Below, piece after piece: positions 14,903 through 49,900 of a stretch of 54,729 nt of DNA (its first letter is position 1; each line of letters opens with the position of its first letter). Made by a program: the position numbers and the translations under genes. This DNA is from a virus. The notes under the pieces were generated by a model, which had not been told where the DNA came from, did not search any database, and was given only the letters and a program-made list of their open reading frames with translations. The DNA is taken from the IMG/VR virus record IMGVR_UViG_3300032093_000178, positions 1 through 54,729 of that record; one strand, 5' to 3'.

Positions 14903-17900
14903 TTAGTTTTTATTTAAAATTTTATGAACTATTGTTTTTAGTTCTTCAATTTCTTTGTTTTGTTTTTCTATAATTTCTTGCTGCTCTTTAACTGATTGTA
15001 TCAATACAGGTACAATCTTTTCAAGTTGTACAGTTTTATAGTTTTGTCCGGATATTGATTTACCATCGGATAATGCATCAAACGGAGCAGGTTTAATAGC
15101 TTGTGGTATTACTTTCTCAACTTCTTGTGCAATTACCCCAATATCATGCCTATCAACCGGATTAAATCCTAAATCATCAACAATATCTTTCCAATCAAAG
15201 TAAACACCTCTCAATCTTTTCAACATTCCTAATGCATCTGAAATTGTAGTGATATTTTCTTTTAATCTTTCATCCGATGAATATGCAATAATGTTACCTG
15301 CTGCATACATATCACCACCCGGTGTCAATTGCCATCTATTTGCACCCATTGACCATCCACCGATACGAATTACGTTATCAACATCAAGTCCCATATTAGT
15401 TGCAAATACACCGTATTTATGCCAAGAGAAGAATGCGGTTAAGTTACTATTTGCACAGGCTTGTAAGTTTGCAGTATTGGTATCGTTTACATAATATGCT
15501 CTATTTGTTACAAATTGGAATTCATAGTTTGGTTGAGAGAAACCACCATTTGTGTTGGTGTATCTAAATCTACCATCACCAGAACTACTACCAAAATAGT
15601 ATCCAGTATCGTCAAGATCGTAATAAATTCTAGCCTGTACATCGCTGTTTATAAGAACGGTATTACCGGTATGCCAGTTAAGATACATTGGATATCCCGG
15701 TCTAGCATCAATGTGTAAGTTACCATTTGATGTAAACATTTGTGCCCAATCACCTATATGGTTATTAGCACCAACTCTTAAATAAGCTCCCCACCACCAG
15801 TTAGGTCCGTGAAGTGTACCACCTCTAATTCTTAAACCTTGGTTATCAGTATTGTGTTGGTCTAAATAATATCCAGTATCTTGGTTATCATAGAAAATTG
15901 GCGCTCTTAATGAACCACCTGCTTCTAAATATTGGTCTACATAAACACCCCATCCAGTAGTAACCATTCTTCTAGAACCAGCATAGTACATATTCAACTC
16001 AGCTCCACTCATGTACCAAATCCAACCTCTAGCACTATCGTGAAGACCAACGTTATCACCCATAGTACTCATAAAGGTATATCTACTACCAATACCATAC
16101 CCATACCATCCATTTCTACCACCACCATAAGTTGCTATATGGCCATATGGATTGCCCTCACACTCTGGAGACCAAATACCTCTACCATAAGATTCCCAAT
16201 AAACACCGGTACATCCTTGTGGTCTGAACCAGTTGTTTGCTAATACATAGTGTAATTGAGATGTACCATTCGGGTCTAATCTATAACCAGAATCGTTTCT
16301 ATCATAAAAAATATTAGAATATATTTCACCAACACCATAAATACCATTTCCATAATATTCAGATGGTCCAAAGTATCTCATCCATTGATTGGTATAATAG
16401 TTCATATAGATTGAATATCCGCAATACGAATCTATATGTAAGTTACCAGGAAGATAAATTCTACCACAACCGTTTCTAGAAATAATTTCACTGTCTACGG
16501 TAATACGGCTTAATGCAGATGTACCATTAGGGTCTGAATAGAATCCGGTATTATTTGAATCATAAACGATAGTTGCATAAAAATCACTAGAATATTCATT
16601 CAGACCATACATTGCAATCTTTCTCCAACCAGACGGTGAAGACCAAACATTTCTAAACCACAATCCACTAATAGGTCCACCAACCATTTGCCAACCGTAT
16701 CCACAACCATATCCACAAGTATAGTGAGCGGTTTGAATACCGGTCCAGTGAGATGTACCCGCTGGTTGGTTACCAGGATTACCCCAGCTATCAAAGAATC
16801 CACTACCCCAGTTCCAAACGGAGTTAAGGTCAGTTGTACCCCAACCCATTGAACCAACCCAATAGTTACTATCACCGGTGAAATCCCAACGAGGTGAATT
16901 ATATTTTGCGGTATTACCCATAGAAGCTTTTGTTCTATCGGTAAATCTATTCATATTCGATGTACCATTACCATCAAAATAATATCCAGTATCGTGGTCA
17001 TAATATATGGCTGCTCTAACATCGGAATGTGCATAAATACCATGTGACCTCATCGATGCTCTATCCGAACCGGCATAATATAAGTTTAGTTCGCCACCAC
17101 TCATATACCACACCCATCCTCTAGCACTGTCATGCATACCAACGTTGTCACCACCGGTACTCATCAGGGTATAACGGCTGAATATACCATATCCACCCCA
17201 TCCGTTTCTACCACCTCCGTTTGTTGCAACGTGCCCATAAGGATTACCCTCACATTCAGGTGACCATAGTCCTCTACTATATGATTGGAAATAGAATCCA
17301 GCACAACCTTGTGCTCTGAACCAGTCATTTGCATATACCGCACTCATTTGAGAAGAACCATTCGGGTCTATATAATATCCGGTGTTATTACCATCATACC
17401 AATATCCGGCATAGAATGTACCACCACCTATGTTTCTATCGTACAACATCACCTCATACCAAGGATATGTTGTACCACCCCATTTACCTCTTAACCACCA
17501 ACGGCTTCCTGCGTCATGCGCACCTACCATTTGCCAACCATACGCAGAACCACCATCAGATGATGCGTAGTGTTGACCCGAAACTATACCTTGTGCGTGA
17601 ACATAACCACCGCCTTGAGGGTGACCAGTTCCACCACCCCAAATATCCCATCCCCCAAAACCAGATTTCCAAGCGTTATCCCAGTTTCCAGCAGATGTAC
17701 CCCATCCAAAAGTACCCGTCCAATAGTTTACATCACTTGTATAATCGAATCTAGGAGTAATCCAATGATAACCCCTATTCATTGCGGCATGTGTTCTTTG
17801 AGTAAATCTATTTAAGTTAGATGTACCATCCATATTAAGATACCAGCCATTATCATTATAATCGTAAATTATTTGAGGTCTAATACCACCACTACCAGGT

Positions 17901-20900
17901 ACTTGAATAGTATTACTACCCTCACCCATATACATTGTCATAGATGAGTTGTTACCATACCAATGTTGTGCCTCAACTACATATGCTGAGAAATCCCAAC
18001 GAGGTTCGTTGTTTACGTTATTAACAAGTTTAATTCTATTACCAACAATATAGTTTGTACGAGATGTTGATGCAAAATCACCATAATAACCACCATCATT
18101 TGAATCGTAATAAATTGGAGCGTACATTGCACCACCAACGGATACAGTACCACCAATAAATGCACCACCTGCAAAACCTAAACGAGAATAAGTTGTACCA
18201 TTATCTTTTAATGCCAAATGATGTCCATATCCACTTCCATACTCATAACCCAATCCGTACATATTACCAAGTGGCCAAGATTCACCAATCGTCCAAATTA
18301 CTTTTGCCGATGTACCTGCGTTATTATAATCACCCATCAAACCACCACTATTTCTACTTACCAAATAGTTACTATACCACATTCTACCATTTTGCTCCGT
18401 TTGATTGAAGTTATTAGTAGAAGCAGGGTCTGAATAATATCCTGTGTTATTTTGGTCATAGAATATCGGAGAACGCATTGAACCATACGCCCATAGATTA
18501 CCAGATGTATCACCTTCTACAACATTACTACCACCAGAATTTCTAAAAATAAAGTAGCTAGCATATTGGAAATACCAGTTACTACTATGATATTGAATTT
18601 TTCCAGCATATTCACCATCCCATCCAGAAGAGTCTGCTCTCCAACTACCATGAGTTCTTATCGCAGTTGTACTATCACCATTAAAATAATAAGTTGAGTT
18701 TGTATCGTAGAATATTGGAGCTTGTACATAGTTTACACCATAAATGTCTCTACTTCTTAATACCTGAAGGTCACCAGAAATCCAGCTATATGAATCAGAT
18801 TCGATTGCCGCCGAATATCCTTCAGCAACATCCATTACACCATCGTAATATGTACCATTTTGTATTTTACGAAGAACAACTTGTCCATAAGACCAAGAAG
18901 AACCACCAGTACCAATTACGATACAATATCTACCATCTTTAACACCAACTCTAACTTGCTTATCAGTATATCCTACTACGTTTGCGTTATAGTTATACCA
19001 CGCACCATTCCAGTTATGTCCACCAACAATTACAGTTGCTGCCGCATTTCCATTATATTCATAAATGTCAATTACGGCGTGAATCATACCATAGTTACCG
19101 GTTCCACCAGGGAATTTAATAATTACGGCACCGGTTGCACCAGTTGCACCCCAAACTGCGTATGGTCTACCAACAATATTTCTTTGTTTAATACCACCTT
19201 GAATTCTTAAAGATGTTGCGGTTGAAGCTGGATTTAAGAAATATCCAGTATCATCATAATCATAAAATATACTTGCTCTTACATCACTAAAGTTTGTAGC
19301 AGAATTACCACCACCATTTATACCACCATACAACCAGTTATATCCGGCTGAATAGATACCATTTGGATGCCAAGAAGCATTACCCGTTCCACCAACGTTA
19401 CCATTACCTCTATAAGAATAAGCGTAAACTTCATTCAGATTAGATGTAGATGCCGGGTCTAAATAATATGCAGTAGATGTGTAATCATAATAAATTGGAG
19501 AACGAACCGAACCGAAAGAATATAGGTTAGATGAACTATCCATATATCCTTTTTGTGAGTTTCCAATTCTAAATTCAACATAGTTTTCAGAACCCAACAT
19601 TAAATACGTTGATGAATATACACCAGGTGCTCCCCAAGCTGCTCCTAACCTTACATCACTTACACCATTACCTTCTGGATTTTGAACTCTAAACCCACTA
19701 TCGTTTGTGTAGAATTTAACTCGATTTGATGACCCACCTTGTAGTACAAATCCGCCATTTGCAGGATTTGTATAATATGTTGAATCATCTAAATCATAAT
19801 AAATTGGTGCGTACATTGAATTATACGAAATAGTCGCATCTGGTTGTAATCTAAAATCTTCGGAGTTGTTATACGCAAATCTTAAATAATCGGATGCACC
19901 ATTATCAACTAATAAGTTCCATCTATTACTTTCATCAGAAGAATATAAATTCAATCCATCATCCCAACTCGTACCACTTGCTACTAAATTAGTTTTTCTA
20001 ATTCTTGAAGTACTATTTGGGTCAATATAATAGTTTCTATCATCATAATCATACATAATACTATGCATTGCATATGTTGATGTAGTTTGATTATAAGTTG
20101 TATTGTTACCAATTACACCAGAACCTAGTGGAACTCTTGGTACACCACCCGGATCAGCTACACTATATTCAATTGAACCAATGTTATCATTATTGAAATT
20201 CATGTCCGCAGATACAGACATTCTATAACGAACTCCATCTAATAATAACATATAGAACCAATATCCACTACCGGCTAAATCTCTTGGACCAGCTTGGTAG
20301 ATATAATATCCATATGGATTTTGGTTAGCGTTGTAAGAACCATGTTCAGTATAGAAATACCACATATTTTCTTGCCCACTATGCCATTCTCTAGAATTTA
20401 TTACAAATTCCGCAGTACAACCACCATACGGGTTACTACCATTATCACTAATTGCACGAGATATAGAAAGTCTAACTGGTGAACCACCACTATTGAATCT
20501 ACTAATACTAAATCTTACCCATCTTCTATTACCATTAAATGTACCAGGAACATCAATATATTGTTCGTTCTGATAAGTTTTATTTACTTGTAATGCGTTT
20601 AATCTAGATGTTGATAATGGATTGGTATAATATGATGTATTATCGGAATCATAAAATATTGGTGCTCTAAAATCAGAAGATGCATATGCGACACCACTTT
20701 CATTTACAGAGAATAATTCATTCGTTGATTTAATTGCATTATTACCAACTATAAATCTTACACCGGTATCATTATTATTAGAATCAATACTTACACGAAC
20801 ATCACCGGCACTTGCTAAGTTTAATATATTACCAGATGAATTATTTTGTATAACGGTTACATCATAGGTATTATCTCTATAAATACCAGCCGCTGTATCC

Positions 20901-23900
20901 GATAAATAAAATGCCCCACCATTTCCGGCTGCATTTGAATATACTGAACTCTTTGCCCAAACAATACCATCATTTCTAACTTCTAATGCAGCTCCACCAG
21001 TACCAACTCCACTTACGGCAAATCCTTCATTAGTACCACCACCTGTCCAAATAATATTTTTAAGTTGTGCTCCTAAATTTGTAGTAGAAGTAGTTGTTCT
21101 AAATCTTGCTCCCCAAGTGTTTGGTTCATTATTTACAGATAATAATCCGTCATTTGGTATATTAATTGAACCACCAACATTTAATCTATATGAATTATTT
21201 GGTGCAGTACCTATACCAGTATTACCTGCTATGTAAGCCTGTTTTGTACCTAAACTTTGGTCAGTTCCAGAGAATAAATAAAAATCAACTATATTATTTT
21301 CATCTTCAATATAAACTGGATAAACACTATCGCCTGCATCATTTGAATATCCTTCAATATACAACATTACCGAATTACCACTATTCCATGTACTATTGTA
21401 ACTTCCGCCACCTAATGAGAAGTTTTTGATATGACCCGCCACAGTACTACCAGCAGTACCACCCGTTATACTTCTATGCGTTAAAAGGCCTGTGTTTGAT
21501 ATTGTAAATCTATTTGCATTATTTGTTACGTCATAAACAACAAACGAACCATCCGCATTTATAATAGAATAATCGGAATCATTATTAGTATCCGTTAAAT
21601 TAATTCTTGGATATGTGTAAGATAAAGTTAAATCACCATTAAGTGTAAGTCCAGCAAAAGTTGGAGAATCAGTTGTTCTTATATTCTGATTCATTAAGTA
21701 AACTTCGGTTGCACCTTGTCCTGTATCAATCGTACCACTCAAAACTACATTTCCACTTACTGATAAAGTGTTATCTGCTGTCCATCTATCATTTGATTCA
21801 TCCCAATAGAATGAAACAGTTGATAATGAACCTCTTCTAACTTCAATACCCGCATTTTCAGTTGGTGTGCCAGTTGTGAAGTTTGAATTAAGAGTTATAA
21901 TATTATCCGCTAATAGGATTGTTTCAGTATTAATTGTAGTTGTTGTACCACTAACTGTCAAGTCACCGGTAATAACCGCATTACCAGTAACTGTCAATAA
22001 AGTTCCATTAAAAGTTAAATTACTTTCAACCGTTCCATTTGGTGCAGTTCCGTTTAATGTAATTACACCATTATCAGTTGTACCAGTTAATGCTAATAAT
22101 CCAGATGAACCAGATGTACCTTGTGTACCAGATGTTCCAGATGACCCGGATGAACCACTACTTCCAGATGTTCCAGATGAACCACTACTGCCTGATGAGC
22201 CACTGCTTCCAGATGAACCAGAAGTACCGCTACTTCCGGATGAACCGGATACTCCAGATGAACCTGATGTGCCTGAACTACCACCGGTGCCTCTTGTTCC
22301 AGATGACCCGGATGTACCAGAACTACCACTCGTGCCATCTGCTCCAGTTTTTCCACTTGTACCAGAACTTCCACTACTACCAGATGTGCCACTACTACCA
22401 GATACTCCAGAAGAACCAGATGAACCTGAACTTCCCGATGTACCTACTGCACCATCTTTACCAGATGTACCACTACTTCCATTACTTCCACTTTGTCCAG
22501 AAGTACCAGATGAACCAGAAGTACCTGAACTACCAGAAGACCCTGCAGAACCTCCCGTACCACCCGTTGAACTTGTACCAGATGAACCAGATGTACCAGA
22601 ACTTCCAGATGAACCAGAAGTACCCGAACTACCCGATGAACCTGAACTGCCACTCGCTCCACCTACTCCACTACTACCAGAAGAACCAGATGAACCAGAT
22701 GTGCCACTACTTCCAGAAGAACCAGAACTACCAGATGAGCCACTCGTTCCCCCACTACCAGCAGTACCAGAACCACCACCTGCTCCAGTTAGACCAGATG
22801 AACCTCCGCTACCAGAAGTACCAGATGAACCAGATGTTCCGTTACTTCCATCTTTACCAGAAGTACCAGATGACCCGGATGTACCAGATGAACCAGAAGT
22901 ACCAGGTGTACCCGTTCCTCCCGATATACCAGAACTTCCCGATGAGCCAGAAGAACCTCCACTACCAGATGTTCCAGATGAACCGGAAGTACCTGAACTA
23001 CCAGATGAGCCACTTATACCAGATGTACCATCTTTACCAGAAGAACCAGAAGAACCGTCTTTACCGGATACTCCACTAGTTCCTGATGAACCAGAACTTC
23101 CAGATGAACCAGAAGAACCTGATGTTCCCGATGAACCAGATGAACCCGATGAACCACCGCTTCCCGATGTACCAGAAGAACCTGAACTACCTGAACTACC
23201 AGAAGAACCTGAACTACCTGAACTACCAGATGTACCACTACTTCCAGATGAACCAGAGGTACCAGATGACCCGGATGTTCCAGAAGAACCAGAACTACCA
23301 GAAGAACCTGATGTTCCAGAAGAACCAGATGAACCTGAGCTACCTGAAGTTCCTGAAGAACCCGCAGAACCAGTTGTACCAGAGCTGCCACTTGTTCCAG
23401 ATGTACCAGAAGTACCAGAAGTTGCTGCTGCAAATCTTCTACTAACTCTACCAGTAGTTGTATTTAATACCAACACTTCATTTGTTGTGTTATCGGTTGG
23501 TATCGTATCAGGAGTTCCAACGAATATAGAACCACTTATGTTTAAACTACCTGTGATTTCTTGTCTATCGGATGTAGCATCCCCAAATTTATTTGAACCA
23601 GATGAATAAATTACGGATGATGAAATAAATGTTGTACTTATTTCAGTTGATGTAATCTTACCACTAACATTAATATTACCAATTATATTTGCATTACCGG
23701 TTACATTTGCATTTCCAGTTAGAGTTAATCCACCACTTATATTTGTTGGTACATTTACTACCAATCCGTTATTAGGTGAAATTTGTGCAACTGCAGAACC
23801 TGATTTTATTCTATTGATATCACCAATCGAATCCGCTTGTATATTAAATAGTCCACTACCATCTCCTCTAAATATTGATGCCGATACCGACCCAGTTATT

Positions 23901-24109
23901 AATGTATTTGCATTAATTGTAAGTGTTTCTGATGCTGGAGTATCGATTATTGATGTTTCAATTTTAGAAGCAGAAAAAGGTATCGCGTTTACAATACTAA
24001 TTGAATTTGGGGAAGCACTTATAACAGGGCTTCCACTAACATAAAGTGATATTACGCTAGAACTTACTTGATTTAATCCATTTGGGTCAATACCTATAAA
24101 ACTACTCAT
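14903..24109 (-). CDS. Giant tail fibre with collagen-like region and S74 chaperone, 3068 aa
   Basis: Modular fibre. Residues 1-225 hold short beta-strand repeats of the I-T-G-S-L-N-I-S-G-S type, including V-I-Y-S-S-G-S-N-K-F-G-D. Residues about 227-673 are collagen-like G-x-x triplets made mostly of S and T. A module E-S-N-L-T-F-N-G follows, then predicted beta structure. Residues about 1150-2840 contain 15 copies of a 'YD..DTGYY.DP..TS' repeat separated by aromatic, glycine-rich segments. The C-terminus is a peptidase S74 intramolecular chaperone: S-D-E-R-L-K-E-N-I with the Ser2945/Lys2950 dyad, then D-I-G-V-I-A-Q-E-V-E-K-V-I-P, and a final coiled coil. S74 domains help fibres trimerise and then cut themselves off. 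The product is probably a host-binding side or tail fibre. Confidence 0.9.
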   Translation of the reverse strand: MSSFIGIDPNGLNQVSSSVISLYVSGSPVISASPNSISIVNAIPFSASKIETSIIDTPASETLTINANTLITGSVSASIFRGDGSGLFNIQADSIGDINRIKSGSAVAQISPNNGLVVNVPTNISGGLTLTGNANVTGNANIIGNINVSGKITSTEISTTFISSSVIYSSGSNKFGDATSDRQEITGSLNISGSIFVGTPDTIPTDNTTNEVLVLNTTTGRVSRRFAAATSGTSGTSGTSGSSGTTGSAGSSGTSGSSGSSGSSGTSGSSGSSGSSGTSGSSGTSGSSGSSGTSGSSGSSGSSGSSGSSGSSGTSGSGGSSGSSGSSGTSGSSGSSGSSGSSGTSGVSGKDGSSGSSGKDGTSGISGSSGSSGTSGSSGTSGSGGSSGSSGSSGISGGTGTPGTSGSSGTSGSSGTSGKDGSNGTSGSSGTSGSGGSSGLTGAGGGSGTAGSGGTSGSSGSSGSSGSSGTSGSSGSSGSSGVGGASGSSGSSGSSGTSGSSGSSGTSGSSGTSSTGGTGGSAGSSGSSGTSGSSGTSGQSGSNGSSGTSGKDGAVGTSGSSGSSGSSGVSGSSGTSGSSGSSGTSGKTGADGTSGSSGTSGSSGTRGTGGSSGTSGSSGVSGSSGSSGTSGSSGSSGSSGSSGSSGTSGSSGSSGSSGTSGTQGTSGSSGLLALTGTTDNGVITLNGTAPNGTVESNLTFNGTLLTVTGNAVITGDLTVSGTTTTINTETILLADNIITLNSNFTTGTPTENAGIEVRRGSLSTVSFYWDESNDRWTADNTLSVSGNVVLSGTIDTGQGATEVYLMNQNIRTTDSPTFAGLTLNGDLTLSYTYPRINLTDTNNDSDYSIINADGSFVVYDVTNNANRFTISNTGLLTHRSITGGTAGSTVAGHIKNFSLGGGSYNSTWNSGNSVMLYIEGYSNDAGDSVYPVYIEDENNIVDFYLFSGTDQSLGTKQAYIAGNTGIGTAPNNSYRLNVGGSINIPNDGLLSVNNEPNTWGARFRTTTSTTNLGAQLKNIIWTGGGTNEGFAVSGVGTGGAALEVRNDGIVWAKSSVYSNAAGNGGAFYLSDTAAGIYRDNTYDVTVIQNNSSGNILNLASAGDVRVSIDSNNNDTGVRFIVGNNAIKSTNELFSVNESGVAYASSDFRAPIFYDSDNTSYYTNPLSTSRLNALQVNKTYQNEQYIDVPGTFNGNRRWVRFSISRFNSGGSPVRLSISRAISDNGSNPYGGCTAEFVINSREWHSGQENMWYFYTEHGSYNANQNPYGYYIYQAGPRDLAGSGYWFYMLLLDGVRYRMSVSADMNFNNDNIGSIEYSVADPGGVPRVPLGSGVIGNNTTYNQTTSTYAMHSIMYDYDDRNYYIDPNSTSRIRKTNLVASGTSWDDGLNLYSSDESNRWNLLVDNGASDYLRFAYNNSEDFRLQPDATISYNSMYAPIYYDLDDSTYYTNPANGGFVLQGGSSNRVKFYTNDSGFRVQNPEGNGVSDVRLGAAWGAPGVYSSTYLMLGSENYVEFRIGNSQKGYMDSSSNLYSFGSVRSPIYYDYTSTAYYLDPASTSNLNEVYAYSYRGNGNVGGTGNASWHPNGIYSAGYNWLYGGINGGGNSATNFSDVRASIFYDYDDTGYFLNPASTATSLRIQGGIKQRNIVGRPYAVWGATGATGAVIIKFPGGTGNYGMIHAVIDIYEYNGNAAATVIVGGHNWNGAWYNYNANVVGYTDKQVRVGVKDGRYCIVIGTGGSSWSYGQVVLRKIQNGTYYDGVMDVAEGYSAAIESDSYSWISGDLQVLRSRDIYGVNYVQAPIFYDTNSTYYFNGDSTTAIRTHGSWRADSSGWDGEYAGKIQYHSSNWYFQYASYFIFRNSGGSNVVEGDTSGNLWAYGSMRSPIFYDQNNTGYYSDPASTNNFNQTEQNGRMWYSNYLVSRNSGGLMGDYNNAGTSAKVIWTIGESWPLGNMYGLGYEYGSGYGHHLALKDNGTTYSRLGFAGGAFIGGTVSVGGAMYAPIYYDSNDGGYYGDFASTSRTNYIVGNRIKLVNNVNNEPRWDFSAYVVEAQHWYGNNSSMTMYMGEGSNTIQVPGSGGIRPQIIYDYNDNGWYLNMDGTSNLNRFTQRTHAAMNRGYHWITPRFDYTSDVNYWTGTFGWGTSAGNWDNAWKSGFGGWDIWGGGTGHPQGGGYVHAQGIVSGQHYASSDGGSAYGWQMVGAHDAGSRWWLRGKWGGTTYPWYEVMLYDRNIGGGTFYAGYWYDGNNTGYYIDPNGSSQMSAVYANDWFRAQGCAGFYFQSYSRGLWSPECEGNPYGHVATNGGGRNGWGGYGIFSRYTLMSTGGDNVGMHDSARGWVWYMSGGELNLYYAGSDRASMRSHGIYAHSDVRAAIYYDHDTGYYFDGNGTSNMNRFTDRTKASMGNTAKYNSPRWDFTGDSNYWVGSMGWGTTDLNSVWNWGSGFFDSWGNPGNQPAGTSHWTGIQTAHYTCGYGCGYGWQMVGGPISGLWFRNVWSSPSGWRKIAMYGLNEYSSDFYATIVYDSNNTGFYSDPNGTSALSRITVDSEIISRNGCGRIYLPGNLHIDSYCGYSIYMNYYTNQWMRYFGPSEYYGNGIYGVGEIYSNIFYDRNDSGYRLDPNGTSQLHYVLANNWFRPQGCTGVYWESYGRGIWSPECEGNPYGHIATYGGGRNGWYGYGIGSRYTFMSTMGDNVGLHDSARGWIWYMSGAELNMYYAGSRRMVTTGWGVYVDQYLEAGGSLRAPIFYDNQDTGYYLDQHNTDNQGLRIRGGTLHGPNWWWGAYLRVGANNHIGDWAQMFTSNGNLHIDARPGYPMYLNWHTGNTVLINSDVQARIYYDLDDTGYYFGSSSGDGRFRYTNTNGGFSQPNYEFQFVTNRAYYVNDTNTANLQACANSNLTAFFSWHKYGVFATNMGLDVDNVIRIGGWSMGANRWQLTPGGDMYAAGNIIAYSSDERLKENITTISDALGMLKRLRGVYFDWKDIVDDLGFNPVDRHDIGVIAQEVEKVIPQAIKPAPFDALSDGKSISGQNYKTVQLEKIVPVLIQSVKEQQEIIEKQNKEIEELKTIVHKILNKN
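15965..16240 (-). repeat. Second copy of a ~92-residue duplicated module
   Basis: It encodes W-F-R-P-Q-G-C through L-N-M-Y-Y-A-G-S, closely matching the copy at 17055-17330 (shared W-S-P-E-C-E-G-N-P-Y-G-H, G-G-G-R-N-G-W and D-N-V-G-x-H-D-S-A-R-G-W). The DNA has diverged, so the duplication is not recent. Confidence 0.8.
17055..17330 (-). repeat. First copy of a ~92-residue duplicated module
   Basis: Partner of 15965-16240. It begins W-F-R-A-Q-G-C-A-G-F-Y-F and ends L-N-L-Y-Y-A-G-S. Two conserved cysteines (in Q-G-C and P-E-C-E-G) are kept in both copies. Confidence 0.8.
22090..23440 (-). repeat. Collagen-like triplet repeat region of the 3068-aa fibre
   Basis: About 450 residues of G-x-y triplets, mostly G-S-S and G-T-S, with occasional G-K-D, G-G-S and G-V-S. 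Only one triplet (G-T-P) contains proline. The DNA is correspondingly repetitive, so all other frames and the opposite strand also stay open over long stretches; those are not genes. Confidence 0.92.
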
Positions 24110-32100: not shown

Positions 32101-35100
32101 AACTTCAATTGAACCGGTAAATTGAGAACCAACATCCGAACCAGTAAATGGAGTAATTACTTTGAATCCAAAATCAGGTGATACTGATGCGGTTACCGAA
32201 CCAGATTTAATTTCAGTACTAATAAGTGCATCTTCGGTTAATGCTGATTTAGGAATATTTCTTAAAAATGTACCTTCCGCATAAATGAATGAAGAAGAAT
32301 CTATGAATAAACCACCACTTGGGTCATTAACATAGATACTTCCGCTTACTGAAATTGAACCAGTAAATTGTGATGCTATTTGCGTACTAAATGAACCGGA
32401 TTCATCAATAGATGATGTAAATGGTGTTAAAACCCTAAACCCATCAACTGGACTTACTGATGCTGTTACTGAACCAGATTTGATTTCCGCTGATATTAAT
32501 GCGTCTTCGGTTAATGCCGAACGAGGTATATCAAAGAATAATCTACCAGATGAACTAATAAATGAACCACTAGCCATTGTAATACTTCCACTAAACGTAG
32601 AACCACTTTCCAATGATTCAACCAAAAATCCTCTTTCTGGAGTTACAGATGCGGTAATACTACCGGTTGCAATTCTAAATACTTCTTCTGATAATGCCGA
32701 ACGAGGAATATCAAATAATCCTCTACCACTACCACTAAACATAGAAGCCGAAATTGGACCAGATACATCTAAACTTCCGGTAATTTGTGTATCACCTATT
32801 AATGTTATTTCTGATGGTATTTCTAAAAAATCAACAATATTCAATTGTCCCGCCATTGACGAATGCAATTGGCAGTTATAATATAATGTGTTAGGTGAAC
32901 CAGAATACGGAGTAAATACAATATTTCCACTATCATCTCCGTTATTTGTAATACTTTGACTAACGGCATTAGAAGTACCAAATGAATTAACAAACTTAAT
33001 CCACAATGGATGACCTACTGCGTTTACATTAAAAGTATATTGAACACCCCTTACTAATGTTAATGTTGCGTTTGAACCAGATACATTTCCATTACTCACT
33101 ACATACGCACTACTTCCATCGTTAGTTACATATATGATATTATCTATTAATTCGTTAGGCAATGGTCTTGCAGATGATGATACGATAAAACTACCATCAA
33201 ATCTAGAATGAACATTTACTTCAAATCCTTCGTTTGGTGAAATAGATGCCGTTGCCGAACCACTAAATATTTTTGTAGAATCAATTGCTAAATTAGCTAA
33301 TGTAATATTTGATAAGTATCTACCATCACCGATGAAATAAGAACCACTAGTTGAAGTTACATCACCTCTTACTAAAAGACTTCCGGTTATATCAACACTA
33401 CCAGTAAATTCAGAACCACTATCAAATGATTGTACTTTAAATCCAAATAGAGGCGAAACGGATGCAGTTACACTACCACTTGCAATTTTATTTGGTGCAA
33501 ACGATAAAGCAGATTCTGGAATATCAAATAAATTTCTACCACTACCACTAAATGCCGAACCACTTTGTAATTCTATATTTCCAAATGCAAATAAACTACC
33601 ACTAATAGAAACACTACCAGTTAATTGAGAACCAAGTAAACCAGATTCAACAATAAATCCTCTATTTGGCAATGCTGAAGCCGTTACGGATCCAGATGCA
33701 ATTCTAAATAATTCTTGAGATAATGCCGAAAATGGTATATCCGTCAATCCTCTACCACTACCACTAAATACCGATGATGAAATACCAGATTTAAATAAAG
33801 CAGATTGGTTTACTACTAAAGAACCCGTTACAACTAAATTAGATTTTAAATCAGTTGAACCTGTTACAATTAGGTAATCTCTAACGGTTACACCGGTATT
33901 TACTAAAAATCCTTTATCAGGTGAAATAGATGCCGTTGCCGAACCACTAAATATTTTTGATGTATCTAAATCAGATAATGCCGCTACTGGTATATCAAAT
34001 AATTTTCTACCACTACCAGAGAATGATGAACCTGTTATTACTCTAACTTCTCCATAGAATGTAGAACCGGTTTCAATTGAAGTTACAACAAATCCAAAAT
34101 TAGGAGATACTGATGCGGTAACACTACCACTTACAATTTTTTCACTAAATAATGCGTCAGGAGCTAATGCTGTTCTTGGAATATTAAATAATCTTGCACC
34201 ACTACCGGAATACGATGAACCGGATGCAAGTTCTATACCTAAACTACCACTTACAAATATAGAAGATGAAAATTCCGCTCTTTCACCGCCTTCTAATCTA
34301 AATCCATAAATTGGAGAAACGGATGCAGTTACAGAACCAGAAACAATTCTAGTTCCTTCTATCGATGGTACATTTCTTAATCTACTACCATCACCTTCAA
34401 ATGAACCTGTAAAATCCGCTGAAAATATTCTTTCCGCAGTAATTGAGCCAGATACAATAATACTACCCGTAAATTCACTACCTCTTTCTAAAGATTCTAC
34501 TTTAAACCCATAAACAGGCGAAACAGAAGCCGTGACAGAACCACTTGCAATTCTAAATGCATCACCGGTAAATGCCGATTGTGGGATATCAAATAACCCT
34601 CTACCACTACCACTAAAGAATGAACCACTTCCTAAAAATATACTTCCACTTACTCCTAAACTTCCTGTTATATTAGTTTTTCCTATGAATGTAATTTCTG
34701 CAGGTATTTCAATTGAATTAACAATTGTAATATCGCCATTCATAGTACTATGATTCTGACAAATATAATATAGGTTATCCGGTGTTAGTTCATCTGGACT
34801 AAATATAATAGTTCCATTATCAGTACCATTGTTTGTAACATTTGTATTATATGCATCATTCGTTCCGCTAACTTTACTACTTCCTGATTTTATCCAAAAA
34901 GGATGTCCAAGTGCGTTTACGTTAAAAGTATAAGTAACTCCTCTTACTAAAGTCAATGTTGGATTTGAAGCACTTATTGCGTTTGTAAACAAATATGCAC
35001 TAAATCCATTATTTGTTACATCATATACTGTATTTAATGATTGACTTGGTATTGCATAGTTTGAAGATGAAACAATCATACTTCCACTAAACTTACTATA

Positions 35101-46900: not shown

Positions 46901-49900
46901 GAACCACTAACTACAAGTGAAGCTGTTATTTGTGGTGTTCCAGTTACAGCAATTGCTGCTGCTTGAGATGCGGTGAATAAAGGTTCTGCTATTAACCCAC
47001 CACCAATAATAGTATTTACAATATCAAAATTTCTAGCAATTGTATTTACTTCATTTGGCGTTGTAAAAGATGATGTTATTTGAGAACCAGTAGTTACATT
47101 TATTGGATTATATTTGTTCCAATTTAGTCCAGTATTTTGTGCCAACAAAGATTTAATTGAACCTAACCCCCTTTCCACAATTCCTTCTATAATTGAAAAC
47201 GAATTACCAACCGAAGTTTGTTCGTTAGTACCACCACCAAAAGATGATGTTATATTTGTTACACCAGATAATCTAAAGTTTTTCTCATCATTATAAACAA
47301 TACGAGGTGTATCTAATATTTGATTTTGAACAATCGTGTCTCCAATAATTTTTGCATAACGAATACCGGCAATAGTTGATGATTTTTGTGTTCTTGTAGC
47401 CTGTGATGGGAAATCATAATAATATCTACCCGCAATCACACCTCTTTCAAGACCACCATAAAGTAAATCAGTTGCTACATTATCAACGATATAACCAACA
47501 TCTCTCCTACAAGTTGCTTGATTATATTTTAAGTTTGGAAATGCAACGTTAATAAATTGAATTGTTTCGTTTTGAATTAATTCCTTATTATTTATTAAAT
47601 TATTATACGCAGATAAAGTTGATGCATCAGGTGATGTAAATGTTTTTCCTTTTAATAGATTATCAACTAACCCACTAGCATATCTTATGCCATCTACTGT
47701 TTGTCCTAATTGCCCAACACCGTCACCATCTCCTTGTACAATTGCTAATGATGGATATAAATAATAATATTCACCAGCAGTTATACTTCTTTCATTTCCA
47801 CCATATTTTATATCAGTTGCTACCGCATCTAAAATATACCCAGTATCACGTCTACACTTTACTTCATTGTAATAAAAATTAGACCAAGATGATGATAGAT
47901 AGGTTATAACTTCATTTTGTATAAATGTTTTATTATCTCTAATCGTATCCCAAACATCAACCACCTCATTCGTTGGTTCTACATATATCTTACCTCTAAT
48001 TAAATTCAATGCAACACCGGCCGCATGTTTAACTGCCGTTAGTGTTGGTCCTAATTGAGTAGTAGTTGCCTCCGATGGATACTGATAATAAAACAAACCA
48101 TTTCTAATACTTTCTTCGTTTCCACCAAATAAAAGGTCTTTTGCTACACCATCTATGATATACCCAACATCTCTCTTACAAGTTTCTTCTGGATATGAAA
48201 AATCACTCCAAGACGATGAAACAAATTGAATAACCTCATCTTTAATAAATTCTTTGTTGTTTATTAATATTTCGTATGCAGTTATAATATCAATACCCGT
48301 TTTAGCTACCGAACCACTTTGTATTGTAGCAGGATATGTTAATGTATTTTTAATTAAATCAAATGGAGTTGTAGATGAATTTACTATATTAATTTCACCA
48401 CCCATAGAACTCCTATTCTGAGATACATAATATAATTTATTTGGTGCATTGTATGGTACCGTAAAGGTTATTGTGCCTCTACTATCACCATTATTAACCA
48501 TGCCAATATTATAATCAAATCTTTCTCCAATACCTTCTATTTGCTGTGTTCTAATCCAAAACGGATATTCAAGTCCACCAAATGTTTCTATCGCATCTAC
48601 ATTAAATTTGTAAGTTTCTCCTCTAAATAAAGTTAATGTAGGATTACTACCAATTCCTTCGAAATCAAATGAAGAACTATTTGTGTTTGTTATTACAAAT
48701 GATTTTTGATGATTTCCAGGTATTGGTAAAATATTACTACCAGTACCATTTGCTAAAATATTATAAACAATACTAAAACTTGCACTTACTGAATTTATTG
48801 TTGCTAAAGATGATGTTACACCAAGCATTATTTGTTCAGTATTTCCCGCTTTAATACTACCACTTGTATTTGCTACATATGTTGGTTTAACAGAAAGTCC
48901 TGATTTAATAATATTAATTATATTATTAAAAGATGAACTTACTGATGATGTATAGTTTGTTGCTACACTACCTATTGGTTGAATTATATCGTTACCTATT
49001 TGTTTACTAGCACTGGTATTTGGTCTAAAATTAAATGAACCTGTACCATTTGCTAATATACTCAAAATAGCCGCATAAGATGCACTTATTTGAGTTAAAT
49101 CTGCATTTGTTGCAGATATAGATGATGTTATTTGCTCTGCTCCTAAAATATTGTAAGGAGAATCAAACCCATATCCTTTTATAGAACTTTTTGCTAATAA
49201 CGTTGGGAAGTTTGATGCACCACTATCAACGATAGCACTAATCAATTTATAATCGGCTGATATTTCTTCGGCTGCTGCGGTTGATAATGCAGTTCCAGCA
49301 GATACTCTACTTTGTGTATATAAAGCCGGTGATGTTAAACGAATACCTTCATCAGTATTTAATTTTGTTATTGTAGGTAATCCGTTTTCTAAACCTTTAT
49401 TTAATACATCAACAACACAACTCCAAGTTCCTCTAACAGAATCTCTAGCTGCTATATTACCACCACTACCAGATATAAAACGAGAACCAGATGCATACAT
49501 ACCATATAAACCAAACGAAATGTTTGAGTTGTTTAGGGTAGCATGTCCACCATTGTTTACTCTAATAGAATAGTATGAGAAGTTATTAAAGAAAGATACC
49601 AACTGAATGAAACCTCTACCGTTTACCAAACAACCTACGCCATTTGGAGAAATTTGAGTGTACGCATCCAATACCATTGAAGCCAACGGAGAATCTGGAT
49701 CTATCACATCACCATTTACATAAAGACCTCCGCCGCCTGGTGGAATATCTTCGTAGAGTTCGGTGAATGAATTTTCTTGATTAGAAATCTGCGAACAGTT
49801 CTGAACGTATGGGGAAGTTGTAATAAATGCACCCGGTTGGAAAGCAACCGCAAATCCCTTTTCAGGATTTATTTGGTCTGGAAATAATCTCAAACCACCC

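Follow-up and report, generated by a model that had tools for sequence, protein, structure and literature searches.

The 3609-aa tail fibre of an uncultured virus contains two domains, A and B, which sequence and modelling indicate to be true cupredoxins, each with a type-1 copper site that is under selection and each inserted between shaft repeats. From their ligand sets and predicted fold, both domains are probably competent to bind copper, and copper is likely bound by the virion. The window, that is, the whole stretch of DNA analysed here, is the 54,729-base record of this virus. A first-pass annotation of the window had proposed a cupredoxin fold, complete type-1 ligands and a location in a fibre; all three are supported by the predicted structure, by fold and profile searches, and by conservation.

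The 3609-aa protein is regarded as a fibre because it matches PHROG tail fibre families and Pfam Collagen. It consists of shaft repeats with the two inserted cupredoxin domains, followed by a long collagen-like part rich in Gly, Ser and Thr. The window also encodes a tail sheath, a tail tube, a head-tail adaptor and a T4-type baseplate protein, and the phage is thus contractile-tailed. Its sheath is closest to those of a Microcystis phage (47%) and of Flavobacterium phages. A search for psbA in six related virus records was negative, and cyanobacteria are therefore not demonstrated as hosts of this phage. Additionally, a second giant collagen-like fibre of 3068 aa (window 14903-24109, minus strand) matches PHROG tail fibre entries and lacks a CxxH motif.

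The four ligands assigned earlier to each domain are found exactly at their positions in the translation of the 3609-aa ORF, and the annotated span, 32820-35075, corresponds to fibre residues from about 637 to 1389. Each ligand Cys is followed by His at +3 and Met at +6, which bears out the proposed C-x2-H-x2-M spacing and gives a loop of the same length as that of amicyanin. The distance from the first His to the Cys is 48 residues in domain A and 46 in domain B, both near the 47 of plastocyanin. Moreover, the flanks of the two domains match, with an 'SGSATAS..P..GF.V' repeat before and an 'EIP.EIT.IG.T.ITGSL' stretch after, and each domain therefore looks inserted between shaft repeats. Both are situated within the initial 40% of the fibre, away from the tip.

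Table 1. Cupredoxin domains, their ligand codons and the proteins that carry them (window coordinates).
Feature	Position	Strand	Evidence
Tail fibre ORF, 3609 aa	26155..36984	(-)	ORF; PHROG tail fibre families; Pfam Collagen 7e-98; repeats
Cupredoxin domain A, residues 652-758, intact H694/C742/H745/M748	34711..35031	(-)	sequence; pLDDT 97.5; fold search
Domain A His694 codon	34903..34905	(-)	
Domain A Cys742-His745-Met748 loop	34741..34761	(-)	
Cupredoxin domain B, residues 1283-1388, intact H1325/C1371/H1374/M1377	32821..33138	(-)	sequence; 53% identical to A
Domain B His1325 codon	33010..33012	(-)	
Domain B Cys1371-His1374-Met1377 loop	32854..32874	(-)	
Virion protein with degenerate copy, 4184 aa	37996..50550	(-)	PHROG short tail fibre / tail fibre families
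Degenerate cupredoxin domain, residues 620-727 of the 4184-aa protein; Tyr662, Ser710, Arg713, Met716	48370..48693	(-)	sequence; fold pLDDT 92.0

AlphaFold2, supplied with an alignment of the window and IMG/VR relatives, predicted domain A as an eight-stranded structure with high confidence (pLDDT 97.5, pTM 0.89). In the model, which starts at residue 652, the ligands are H43, C91, H94 and M97. C91 is the final residue of strand 86-91, and the loop that leads from there to the last strand contains H94 and M97; H43 sits between strands 34-39 and 45-48. We take these to be the places of the plastocyanin ligands. When the model was searched against the PDB, the best 50 matches listed were all copper proteins of the cupredoxin fold, including rusticyanin, AcoP, plastocyanin, auracyanin, pseudoazurin, nitrite reductase, cytochrome oxidase subunit II and multicopper oxidases. 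The TM-scores to solved cupredoxins are moderate, mostly 0.5-0.6, which counts against the copper explanation. Matches of the model in BFVD also include proteins from Marseillevirus- and Pithovirus-like records that are predicted to be beta-sandwiches. The hallmarks of a type-1 cupredoxin are thus present in domain A, namely a predicted beta-sandwich with equatorial His, Cys and His and an axial Met in canonical order and loop, and the structure prediction proposed in the first-pass annotation places the ligands in strand and loop positions consistent with such a site.

A single-sequence PDB search and a first profile were too weak, and isolate and bacterial relatives were added to give profile A3, built on 34 phage and bacterial relatives. 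This profile matched copper nitrite reductase (3.6e-5), plastocyanin (1.9e-4) and amicyanin (5e-4), with its Cys, His and Met columns falling on the ligands of the matched proteins. For the Pfam plastocyanin/azurin family Copper-bind (PF00127), the window copies gave no match, and 4 of 38 relatives matched, with an E-value of 0.0015 at best. The At5g54830-like domain (PF25489) is the best Pfam match for 24 of these 38 (best E 5.8e-7); the window copies score 20.3-21.6 bits against it, below its 27-bit cut-off. A specific amicyanin identity was rejected because the cut-off of the NCBIfam amicyanin family (TIGR02657) was not attained: the window domain gave no match, and the domain of phage syn9 scored 14.1 bits against the required 110.2. 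PHROG 677, the cyanophage gp9-type connector family, gave matches of 7e-21 and 4.5e-17 that cover positions 286-412 of its 412-position profile, which establishes homology of the window domains to the C-terminal part of this family.

Ligand conservation was analysed in 164 different domains from IMG/VR, phage isolates and bacterial genomes. Thinning to 70% identity left 61 domains with the Cys, with a mean pairwise identity of 46%. In these 61, five columns are invariant, namely the equatorial ligands H, C and H together with one Pro and one Tyr; the axial Met is present in 93%, and the median column is 61% conserved. Invariant ligands against such a median column led us to reject chance resemblance. 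The same five columns are invariant in a set of 34 phage and bacterial domains. Among ligand-bearing domains, exceptions occur at the axial position only and in bacteria only, one with Gln and three with Phe (L062, L080, L082 and L083); the loop of the Phe group is one residue shorter. Axial variation of this kind (Phe, Gln) is known for type-1 sites. Because some search seeds contained ligand residues and thus biased the sample, copies without any ligand-bearing seed pattern were recounted: the equatorial set is complete in 38 and incomplete in 16, and one search that targeted degenerate copies inflates the latter number. A tblastn search of phage isolates without ligand-bearing patterns returned HCHM in all 16 isolates read.

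The first-pass annotation counted two copies, and both stand; it overlooked a third, ligand-less copy in the neighbouring 4184-aa ORF. In the AlphaFold2 model of this degenerate domain (pLDDT 92.0), the cupredoxin fold is kept, and the best PDB matches are rusticyanin and AcoP. Orthologues were found in ten IMG/VR contigs, with an eleventh from a further search. In all of them the first His is Tyr, the Cys is replaced by Ser or Ala, the second His by Arg, Lys or Asn, and the Met position holds Met or Leu. A 274-kb relative encodes one degenerate copy and three intact ones. In a tree of 104 rows, which was built without the ligand columns and leaves many forks unresolved, the state of the site changes three times, in the window's group, in a second group (L045-L055 type) and in the single domain L192. 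The second group (L045, L046, L048, L049, L051-L053 and L055) comprises phage proteins that keep the initial part of the domain, 'NPxITLVRGVTY ... FWIQTEPG', with the whole copper loop gone. Collectively, these sequences indicate that the ligands of a site share one fate: they are either all present or almost all gone, and the fold persists after the loss. This is the pattern expected of function, and it argues that the intact site is used. The degenerate copies also reveal that the fold does not require the ligand site and that virions can use the one without the other, which counts against the copper explanation.

The latter point leads to an alternative, in which the cupredoxin fold is a mere Ig-like spacer and the site, being either a relic or a rigid core of hydrogen bonds, is at no time occupied by metal in the virion. 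Ig-like domains serve as spacers in other phage fibres, and the degenerate copy, which retains the fold without the ligands, is stably inherited. Nevertheless, we consider a mere spacer unlikely, given that H, C and H are strictly invariant in the ligand-bearing domains while the median column is not, and that the ligands are lost together rather than singly.

Cysteine use bears on the nature of the site. The 3609-aa fibre has only two Cys residues, C742 and C1371, and both are ligands. Across 25 different IMG/VR fibres of at least 1500 residues, 52 ligand Cys and 9 others occur in 62,484 residues, and 22 of the 25 have no Cys beyond the ligands. The 4184-aa neighbour contains 27, which indicates that the virus does not avoid cysteine everywhere. 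Many of these 27 are regularly spaced, at about 108-117 residues, which points to a Cys-containing repeat. The same ligand set binds other soft metals in vitro, and the site might accordingly hold Zn, Ag or Hg; alternatively, the single Cys might be a thiol that cross-links fibre chains, a reaction that would be specific because the ligand Cys is the only Cys of the fibre. Both versions appear improbable to us: the axial Met/Gln/Phe variation among relatives points to a copper site, and a reactive thiol would not need the co-conserved two His and Met.

The domain is far more widespread than implied by the first-pass annotation, which had rightly suspected similar motifs in marine phage virion proteins. 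A query based on syn9 matched 338 phage records, of which 332 are Synechococcus, Prochlorococcus or 'Cyanophage' records, and two queries based on the window matched 127 and 284. The commonest carrier among the phage records is gp9, the baseplate/fibre connector; further carriers are 'tail fiber' and 'long tail fiber proximal' proteins, proteins of the T7-like podoviruses P-GSP1 and P-SCSP2, and an Actinomycetia phage. Bacterial relatives (Acidobacteria, Bacteroidetes, Verrucomicrobia and others) keep the same ligands, several of them with signal- or lipoprotein-like N-termini. In addition, the baseplate wedge protein adjoining gp9 (syn9, S-CAM8, P-RSM4 and ACG-2014d) contains further, more divergent cupredoxin-like domains with weak profile scores (L061 from 4321, L205 from 2345, L207 from 2267 and L208 from 2288), some of which show an 'HP ... 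C-x2-H-x2-M' pattern.

This distribution also bears on the adsorption model of the first-pass annotation, in which fibre copper would be bait for a host outer-membrane receptor of copper or a copper carrier. Its published analogue, and the nearest published concept, is the Trojan Horse idea for iron on phage tails, in which HxH motifs in the fibres bind the metal (PMC11705849). We regard copper bait as very unlikely, since the domain also occurs in gp9-type baseplate/fibre connectors and is carried by phages of unlike hosts, including the Actinomycetia phage. Moreover, a simple version of the model is weakened by the placement of A and B away from the fibre tip. The weakest reading, a redox-active site for electron transfer or for copper or radical detoxification at the host surface, is suggested by the closest solved folds, which are electron carriers or domains of oxidases and nitrite reductases, and is most improbable for a domain fixed on an extracellular shaft with no second copper centre, partner domain or evident redox partner seen.

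To return to copper binding, the chances seem to us about even that copper is bound and that it serves chiefly for stability or adhesion rather than catalysis. The fibre is presumably synthesised in the cytoplasm, where copper is scarce, and the apo-domain would for that reason fold first and take up copper later, presumably after lysis, from the lysate or the water. The metal would then lock the Cys-His-Met loop and rigidify the lateral domain, and perhaps a contact patch on its surface; the domain may serve the fibre structurally or in surface binding. An assumed trimeric fibre, each chain of which has two intact domains, would have six copper sites. The supply of copper to a cytoplasmically assembled fibre is uncertain and counts against the copper explanation.

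The original observation thus holds, and more strongly than it was first put. The fold and the site are known, the location is unexpected, and the domain is common rather than peculiar to the window fibre. No description of a cupredoxin in a phage fibre was found in the open-access literature searched, where one viral copper-motif paper concerns NirK. Within that literature, the sequence-based observation that complete type-1 copper ligand sets are widespread in the virion proteins of cyanophages appears to be new. Copper binding, if real, would make metalloprotein particles of a large share of cultured cyanophages, tie phage stability or adsorption to the copper available in lake and ocean water, and widen the discussion of phage-tail metals beyond iron. 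More tentatively, and in our view less likely than not, most cyanophages, and relatives that infect other hosts, might have copper-containing virions, with several type-1 sites per fibre or baseplate that are loaded from the water after lysis and needed for stability or attachment; they would then be an uncounted organic copper ligand. Virion copper is open to study in laboratory phages such as syn9 and P-SSM2, and the window virus has its own natural negative control in the ligand-free paralogue.

Domains A and B resemble the type-1 cupredoxins plastocyanin, amicyanin, rusticyanin and auracyanin in predicted fold, in the places of the His...Cys-x2-His-x2-Met ligands and in profile match. Those proteins are soluble electron carriers of the periplasm or thylakoid, whereas A and B are set in a giant phage fibre, fall below the Copper-bind cut-off and have no known redox partner. 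The cyanophage gp9-type 'baseplate wedge tail fiber connector' (PHROG 677) contains the same domain with the four ligands kept; there, however, a single C-terminal copy ends a protein of ~400 aa, while in the window two copies lie inside a 3609-aa fibre. Finally, the iron-binding HxH fibres of T4 (gp37) and alterophage R22Y similarly combine metal-ligand residues in a phage fibre with a proposed ecological meaning (PMC11705849). In contrast to their iron sites, which are located in the trimeric shaft, the window fibre carries a folded copper-protein domain.
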